DNA from: Mesaphorura yosii
Lineage: Eukaryota; Arthropoda; Collembola; Poduromorpha; Tullbergiidae
Assembly: GCA_009869945.1 (NCBI GenBank)
Contig: WIXG01000258.1
Coordinates: forward strand, 1-64,000
Direction of reading: 5' to 3'
Length of the DNA stretch: 64,000 nt
Positions 3,743-6,225 of this stretch are shown here, in pieces; positions within the stretch are counted from its first letter, which is position 1; each line of letters starts with the position of its first letter. The notes below the pieces were generated by a model. The model saw only the letters and a program-made list of their open reading frames with translations. It made no database searches and was not told the DNA's origin. Both the position numbers and the translations under genes were made by a program.

Positions 3743-6225
3743 ATGCAATCAACGGATAGTCATGGGCGGAATGTCATCGTTTGTGATAATGGAACAGGAG
3801 TAAGTAAACTACCGTCATTATTTAATTTATTATGAATCAAGAGCCATTGAATAGTTTTGAATGATCGACAGTTCGTCAAATGCGGTTATGCTGGATCCAA
3901 CTTTCCTGAGTACATCTTTCCATCGATGGTGGGACGCCCAATCATCAGAGCTGCAAATAAAATTGGTGATATTGAAGTGAAGGTACATTGCAAGTACAAC
4001 ACAATTAAGCAATAAAATGTGTATAATAATATTGCTAACTGACGTCAACCGTACCTTGGGACTGGCCCTCGCCTGAACAGTAATCTTAAAATAGCCGCAG
4101 AGTTTCATTTTAAAGTTTTTCGTAATGGCAATTGATAGACAGGGTAGCTGATGTTGAGTTATTTGTACCTGGGAGAAGCCTATTCGGCTGTTGTCAATTA
4201 ATTGGTATCTGGGGTAGCAAAATACTGATCAACCTTGTTTATTATATTTTTGTATTACTTATAGCCAGAAGATGAGATCCATGTAAGTATGCATGCAATC
4301 ATCGAGTGTAGTAGCGTATTCAATAGTGCGTAGTGATGAATGGTCAATGATAGATGGAATGCCCGTTTTAAAAATGCATCGTTGTTATTTACTCAGAATC
4401 GTTGACTGATTGTTGCACTCTGCTTGAATTGAATGCGTTGTACTTTCACTAATATGCAATTTATCTAAAGTTATTAGTTATTGCTTCAGCATGCGATCAC
4501 GCATTGCCTATAAGCATGCCTTTCAACTAGACTTAAATTTCAATTGCATATTGCATTAGAAATTTGTTGAGATTTGTAGAATCTCATGACGCCCGTTTTA
4601 TGATAGATTAATTTGAGTTGTCTTTTCATGTTTGCACTTTGTGGATTGCGTAAATGATTTGAAAATCAGAATGCACGTCCGAGGTGAAAGCACTAAGTAT
4701 GAAGAGTAAAGCATTTCTGTCTCATATATTCAGGACTTGATGATTGGTGATGATGCCAGCAAACTCAGGTCCATGCTTGAAGTAAATTACCCCATGGAAA
4801 ATGGTATTGTAAGGTGAGAAATGCCGAAAAATTGATTCCCATTACAATTTAACTTGTAAACTTAAGCTTTTCCCTGTTCCTGTTAGGAACTGGGAAGACA
4901 TGCTGCATTTATGGGACTTCACCTTTGGCCCTGCAAAAATGGACCTTAATCCACGCGAGTGCAAAATCATGCTTACTGAACCGCCTATGAATCCAACGAA
5001 AAACCGAGAGAAAATGATTGAGGTATGCATTCAGTTATTAAGTAACGCCGCCAATGTCAAGCTCGCTTTGATTCCATTATATTATTTTATTATAGGTGAT
5101 GTTTGAAAAGTACGAGTTCGCTGGTGCCTACATAGCAATCCAAGCGGTTCTAACTCTCTATGCACAAGGCTTGTTAACTGGCGTGGTTGTGGACTCCGGT
5201 GATGGTGTGACCCACATATGTCCTGTGTACGACGGGTTCGCCCTTTCCCACTTAACAAGGAGACTGGACATTGCGGGTCGAGACATTACACGTTACCTCA
5301 TTAAAGTAAGTCTGGTCGGATTCCATTGATTCATTCTCGACTACCTAAATCATTTTAAAGGCAGCGCCCGAACTTATGTCTTGTATGATCAGCTTCTTCT
5401 ACTGAGAGGATATGCATTCAATCATTCTGCCGATTTTGAGACTGTTCGCATGATGAAGGAAAAACTTTGTTACATTGGCTACAATTTAGAAACCGAGCAG
5501 AAACTTGCACTGGAGACTACTGTCCTAGTGGAGACTTACACAGTAAGATACAGATGAAAACCTACAGGTTAATCGAACAGAGTAAGTTCACATCCTGTAA
5601 ATCTGGACTTTTTTAGTTACCAGATGGGCGGGTGATTAAAGTGGGAGGCGAAAGGTTCGAGGCTCCGGAGGCCCTGTTTCAACCCCATCTTATCAACGTT
5701 GAAGGTCAAGGTAAGTCTGGCGTGCATTAAAATATAGATAGAAAAATGTACCAGCTTCAACATTTCATATGGATTGATTTTGCAGGAATTGCTGAATTAG
5801 TGTTCAGCACAATCCAACAAGCAGATATTGACATTCGTCCCGAGCTTTACAAACACATTGTTCTTTCTGGTGGTTCAACAATGTATCCTGGTCTTCCAAG
5901 TCGACTGGAGCGGGAAATTAAGCAGTTGTATTTGGAAAGAGTTTTGAAAGGAGAAACTGACAAGTTATCAGTAAGTCAGAGGAAGGGCTTCCACGGTCAA
6001 CTGCAAGTACTTACAAATGCTAATGAACTCTGAACTCTGCTCTCATTTCAGAAATTTAAGATCAAGATTGAAGATCCTCCAAGAAGGAAAGACATGGTGT
6101 TCATAGGAGGCGCAGTTTTAGCAAATGTCATGAAAGACAAAGATTCATTTTGGATGTCCCGTGAAGAATACCTTGAGAAAGGCATTCGTGTCCTTGAAAA
6201 ATTGGGTGTACGACCCGGCTCGTAG
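3743..6225 (+). CDS. Arp2: Actin-related protein 2 (Arp2/3 complex subunit)
   Basis: Arp2 is the actin-like ATP-binding subunit of the Arp2/3 complex, which nucleates branched actin in the cytoplasm. Exons: 3743-3799, 3872-3982, microexon 4265-4282, 4734-4813, 4887-5022, 5096-5305, 5393-5542, 5617-5710, 5786-5970, 6052-6225. This gives 404 residues with the microexon and 398 without; family members are about 394-399. Actin-fold motifs are intact: CDNGTG near residue 14, [62 protein letters not shown] and a C-terminal [15 protein letters not shown]. The start is the first ATG in frame and gives a family-like [19 protein letters not shown]-terminus. Sequence is close to insect and vertebrate Arp2 throughout, with no missing key residue. 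The neighbour upstream is Rtf1 on the other strand. Confidence 0.98.
4265..4282 (+). CDS. Arp2: 18-nt in-frame microexon of Arp2 (encodes PEDEIH)
   Basis: The six-codon block is flanked by a T-rich tract ending in TATAG and by GTAAGT, a near-perfect donor. The exon before it ends in phase 0 (GAAGTGAAG) and the exon after starts in phase 0 (GACTTGATG), so including or skipping it keeps the frame. It inserts six residues between EVK and DLMIGD, next to the site where vertebrate ACTR2 is known to have a longer isoform by five residues. Inclusion is inferred, not observed. Confidence 0.8.
4290..4295 (+). promoter_or_regulatory. Rbfox-like splice motif TGCATG next to Arp2 microexon
   Basis: TGCATG begins seven bases after the microexon's last base. 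Two shorter GCATG copies follow in the same intron at 4489-4493 and 4514-4518. Rbfox proteins bind UGCAUG, and copies downstream of an exon usually promote its inclusion. Function here is inference. Confidence 0.5.

Follow-up and report, generated by a model that had tools for sequence, protein, structure and literature searches.

The closest known counterparts of the exon reported here are insertions in Arp2 itself. Vertebrate ACTR2 presumably has an isoform in which an alternative, phase-0 exon of 15 nt inserts five residues between the equivalents of K53 and D54. The fly Arp2 entry is taken to carry a similar five-residue insertion at the equivalent site. The insertion is not mentioned in the available parts of PMC8797185, PMC12626424, PMC10918085, PMC10514467, PMC4317164, PMC12592476, PMC2441452 and PMC10945587; the name ‘ACTR2’ is absent from the main text of PMC4317164 and PMC12626424, as is ‘Arp2’ from that of PMC8797185. 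In their available text, PMC2441452 mentions two Arp2 isoforms for the Xenopus genome and PMC10945587 refers to the ACTR2 transcript NM_001005386 in connection with a gene fusion. No publication on an ACTR2 microexon or on an Rbfox-dependent exon of this gene was found in our search; most subscription papers lie outside its range, so such a publication may exist.

Two programs of microexon regulation are described in systems comparable to this locus. In humans, TGCATG occurs more often than expected downstream of alternative microexons, where binding of Rbfox enhances their inclusion; the splice sites of Rbfox-regulated microexons tend to be weaker (PMC4317164). In addition, Rbfox1 shapes fiber-type splicing in fly muscle (PMC8742874), and RBFOX2 is among the factors that regulate a microexon of Snap23 in a tissue-specific manner (PMC12064062). 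The second program depends on the eMIC domain, which has been traced to bilaterian ancestors. Fly eMIC exons combine a UGC motif close to the 3' splice site and UCUC within the tract with a weak donor of their own and a strong upstream donor. Only four exons occur at equal position in fly and mouse, and the programs of these two animals have been called nearly completely rewired (PMC8797185).

The structural setting of the insertion has likewise been shown in published work on other species. At the branch junction of S. pombe, ARPC3 buries 639 Å2 on the D-loop of Arp2 (PMC10918085). Simulations and structures place the Arp2 D-loop in a hydrophobic pocket of ARPC3 in the active complex, not in the inactive one, and this contact is reported to be important for nucleation. 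The contact was measured from I41 of Arp2, with Y58 as the measured pocket residue of ARPC3 (PMC10514467).

We analyzed a window of 64 kb, the whole stretch of Mesaphorura yosii DNA presented here, which lies on contig 258 of the genome; the genome survey covered 93 Mb in 1127 contigs. Exon joining and translation yield a complete Arp2 gene at 3743-6225 on the plus strand. Coding exon 1 (3743-3799, 57 nt, ending in phase 0) translates to the Arp2 N-terminus, and exon 2 (3872-3982, 111 nt) ends ...GDIEVK, also in phase 0. The microexon follows at 4265-4282. The next exon, at 4734-4813, starts DLMIGDDAS, and the remaining exons are located at 4887-5022, 5096-5305, 5393-5542, 5617-5710, 5786-5970 and 6052-6225, with the stop codon TAG at 6223-6225. 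The reading frame is open with or without the microexon: the ten exons that include it encode 404 residues, the product without it has 398 residues, and the sole stop in each is the terminal one.

The full-length spliced protein matches the Pfam Actin model with an E value of 4.4e-98. When its first 286 residues were compared with the PDB, the five best chains were Arp2 (542-548 bits), which we take to be vertebrate; among the best 60 of 121 matches, these were followed by S. pombe Arp2 (398 bits) and by actins scoring no more than 289.6 bits. Judged from the PDB matches listed, the gene is an Arp2 orthologue, nearer to Arp2 than to actin or other Arps. When the short form was searched against the entire genome and the best candidates were scored, identities outside the window were at most 65%; hence no second close copy of Arp2 was seen. 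One Arp2 exon was also searched against bacterial and archaeal contigs, where it matched 10 loci, all titled Heimdall- or Hodarchaeota, and against viral contigs, where it matched 0 loci. Other features of the window include minus-strand exons at 33620-34700 that resemble phospholipase C beta by eye, and a plus-strand protein kinase domain at 13470-13940 (Pfam Pkinase, 1.2e-35) that appears PAK4-group-like by eye. TTAGG arrays are present on five contigs of the genome (overlapping matches: 15 forward, 6 reverse); together with the encoded eMIC domain, they indicate a bilaterian and probably an arthropod host, while a search with an 18S fragment gave no match.

The microexon (CCAGAAGATGAGATCCAT) comprises 18 nt, is in phase 0 on both sides and encodes PEDEIH, residues 57-62 of the long product. 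As an in-frame microexon, it is no longer than 51 nt, divisible by three, open and bounded by canonical splice sites. Its host intron of 751 nt consists of 282 nt upstream (3983-4264), the 18 nt of the exon and 451 nt downstream (4283-4733), while the seven other Arp2 introns measure 72, 73, 73, 87, 74, 75 and 81 nt. The sequence before the exon ends ...ttgtattacttatag and the donor that follows is GTAAGT (4283-4288). A T-rich tract lies 5' of the exon, AG is absent from 4218 to 4262 (45 nt), and a candidate branch site, CTGAT at 4225-4229, was identified by eye, with its A 37 nt 5' of the exon.

Splice sites were scored with a generic matrix of hand-entered frequencies. On this matrix, the microexon obtains 4.41 for its acceptor and 4.91 for its donor, a total of 9.32. 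Both values lie between the extremes of the remaining Arp2 sites, namely eight acceptors from -2.13 to 5.70 (5.15 for the exon next after the microexon) and eight donors from 1.13 to 8.07. The preliminary description of this locus had proposed an 18-nt, phase-0 PEDEIH exon in Arp2, and its coordinates are exact. The frame is open. The host intron holds 19 in-frame candidates that are free of stops and no longer than 51 nt; the exon ranks first among them, the runner-up having a total of -2.24. The splice sites had also been called strong, which holds on the intron side; the final exon base is T rather than the usual G.

Since decoy splice sites are numerous in genomes, these signals might be a chance pair in a long intron that is never spliced. 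However, when the host intron was shuffled 2000 times with its dinucleotides preserved, only 4 shuffles reached the microexon total, and none matched both sites. Over both strands of the whole window, just two other candidates score at least as high as the microexon, both on the minus strand, at 34106-34132 and at 33754-33765; on inspection by eye, they are pieces of longer ordinary exons in another gene. On the plus strand of the 64 kb, no other candidate attains such a score; the microexon is free of in-frame stops, and its host intron is in phase 0. We consider a chance decoy very improbable and, as far as the sequence can tell, 4265-4282 is very probably a real spliced exon.

A real exon may nevertheless be included in all or nearly all transcripts, in which case the D-loop of Arp2 would merely be longer in this lineage and unregulated. 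Such constitutive use agrees with the two splice scores, which are within the range of the gene’s other, presumably constitutive, sites, and no signal at the locus proves skipping. The donor of exon 2 (3983-3988, AAG|gtacat) scores 1.18, the second lowest of the nine Arp2 donors, with two others similar at 1.13 and 1.25; its weakness serves inclusion and skipping alike. Against constitutive use, the Arp2 sequences among the best 60 of 121 PDB matches are without an insert at this position (five by alignment, and that of S. pombe by its match spans alone), so that skipping of the microexon would yield the standard protein. Moreover, the exon has only 18 nt and its introns are far above the norm of the gene. 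A tiny exon in unusually long introns is typical of regulated microexons. Constitutive inclusion is therefore regarded as unlikely, and the microexon is likely to be used alternatively, as a cassette.

The insertion falls at a precisely defined site. On alignment, PEDEIH is placed between the counterparts of K53 and D54 in bovine Arp2, and between those of K50 and D51 in an actin encoded by the same genome; its inclusion would consequently lengthen the D-loop by six residues. The K53/D54 phase-0 site would be shared with the vertebrate ACTR2 and fly Arp2 insertions, which presumably differ in having five residues of unrelated sequence rather than the six of PEDEIH. The variable loop of the preliminary description is, by alignment, the Arp2 D-loop, which contacts ARPC3 in the active complex. 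I41, from which this contact was measured (PMC10514467, in its available part), lies 12 residues N-terminal of K53 and the insert comes after K53; the insert need not, therefore, touch the ARPC3 pocket. It may act through the length and charge of the loop rather than by touching the pocket. The genome contains two paralogous ARPC3 genes (contigs C205 and C32), both of which retain FRTYE at the Y58 position; thus, no paralogue-specific partner was found for the longer D-loop. From this evidence, whether the microexon would change the ARPC3 contact functionally appears evenly balanced.

A putative Rbfox site lies next to the microexon. The consensus TGCATG occupies 4290-4295 on the plus strand, beginning at intron base 8, and two further GCATG words, each within AGCATGC, follow at 4489-4493 and 4514-4518. 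All three had been noted in the preliminary description, which put the first seven bases past the exon, as found here. Their number is not above chance. The host intron contains three GCATG words, where shuffles average 1.48 (P 0.18), and one TGCATG, where they average 0.68 (P 0.50); the part downstream of the microexon contains three GCATG words against 1.18 (P 0.11). The position of TGCATG is more unusual by a test chosen after the site was seen: among 20000 random positions in the window, 0.28% have a complete TGCATG between +5 and +14, and 2.8% have one between +5 and +60.

These motifs have to be read against the composition of the window. TGCATG occurs at 0.56 per kb of strand, with 37 copies on the plus strand where dinucleotide frequencies predict 26.3, and there are 98 GCATG words on that strand compared with 74.4 expected, an abundance that speaks for a chance decoy. 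GCATGC is likewise over-represented on the plus strand of the window (34 against a dinucleotide expectation of 18.0). As a result, GCATG words are by themselves weak evidence for Rbfox. In the window, 3 of 43 GTAAGT sites have TGCATG within 60 nt, the microexon’s own included. Throughout the genome, 610 GTAAGT-TGCATG pairs (323+287) lie within 30 nt, compared with 668 (311+357) in the backward-read control; a control with TGTACG in place of TGCATG gave 296 (156+140), and its own backward-read version gave 798 (420+378). About 1054 pairs would be predicted from window rates, compared with the 610 found. Because the control patterns (668, 296 and 798) disagree, enrichment of TGCATG is not inferred: pairs within 30 nt show no clear genome-wide enrichment of TGCATG after GTAAGT, relative to the control patterns and the window-rate extrapolation.

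The genome does encode an Rbfox protein. Its RRM is spread over three exons with splice sites at their joins (contig C171:71000-77500), and its best PDB match is human RBFOX1 (E 1.8e-39), with 74 of 74 residues aligned and 64 identical. The middle RRM exon has 54 nt, which is presumably also its length in vertebrate Rbfox genes. No match to the Pfam Fox-1_C model was obtained at E 0.1 in an exon-by-exon search of the genome. The Arp2 microexon resembles the Rbfox-enhanced microexons of vertebrate brain, heart and muscle described by Li et al. 2015 (PMC4317164, in its available part) in being short, in having TGCATG shortly downstream and in being flanked by introns that are long for the gene. 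It differs from them in that its splice sites are not weak. The Rbfox idea of the preliminary description is retained in part: TGCATG is adjacent to the exon and an Rbfox gene is present, whereas the GCATG count is at chance and genome-wide enrichment is not clear. On the available signals, Rbfox is the best single candidate regulator, and we tentatively suggest, at a little under even probability, that it enhances inclusion of the microexon.

The microexon could instead be neural, its inclusion depending on an Srrm-type protein that acts through its eMIC domain. Such a domain is encoded in the genome: the SRRM_C model gives 24.4 bits on one exon, below the cut-off of 27, and 45.5 bits when two exons are joined. 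The locus resembles the eMIC-dependent neural microexons of Drosophila and mammals in comprising a short in-frame exon of a cytoskeletal gene, with eMIC in the genome and an AG exclusion zone of 45 nt before the acceptor; eMIC targets of both fly and mouse are biased to cytoskeletal proteins (PMC8797185, in its available part). The signature of fly eMIC exons is nonetheless absent from this microexon. The last 60 nt of the upstream intron lack TGC and TCTC. In addition, donor strengths on the generic matrix are reversed, with a strong donor of its own (4.91) and a weak one upstream (1.18). Furthermore, the four exons found at equal position in fly and mouse, as given in the available part of PMC8797185, do not include one in Arp2. 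Control by eMIC in place of Rbfox thus seems improbable. The eMIC gene itself is SR-rich and located at contig C17:213188-216352, on the strand opposite to the locus; its domain is split over two exons and reads RRRGSPSFLDRRRIT before the junction and SARKRPIMY... after it. A nearer alternative acceptor in this gene would give a protein ending RITRSRR, so that splicing might switch eMIC off.

Taken together, we somewhat favor a cassette microexon of Arp2 that tunes the ARPC3 contact, with Rbfox as the likeliest enhancer of its inclusion. Skipping would leave ordinary Arp2. Inclusion would insert PEDEIH directly behind the counterpart of bovine K53, towards the C-terminal end of the D-loop. Once the complex is activated, this loop sits on ARPC3, a contact that helps to hold the nucleating short-pitch state. 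A D-loop six residues longer and rich in acidic residues would be expected to alter the strength or geometry of this latch, and thereby branch nucleation, or the life of branches, in cells that include the microexon. Rbfox bound to UGCAUG, seven bases past the exon, would be the likeliest means of promoting inclusion in such cells. Alternative use, the action of Rbfox, the tissue concerned and the effect on activity are inferred.

A more doubtful proposal reaches beyond this species. The Arp2 junction after K53 may serve repeatedly as a splicing switch among bilaterians, at which microexons matched in position and different in sequence lengthen the D-loop. If so, cell types would tune the Arp2-ARPC3 latch, and with it the formation and lifetime of branches, by splicing rather than by subunit swaps. 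The diversity of Arp2/3 complexes is usually credited to subunit paralogues. A splice switch in the D-loop would, if real, be a different route to branched-actin kinetics specific to neurons or muscle.
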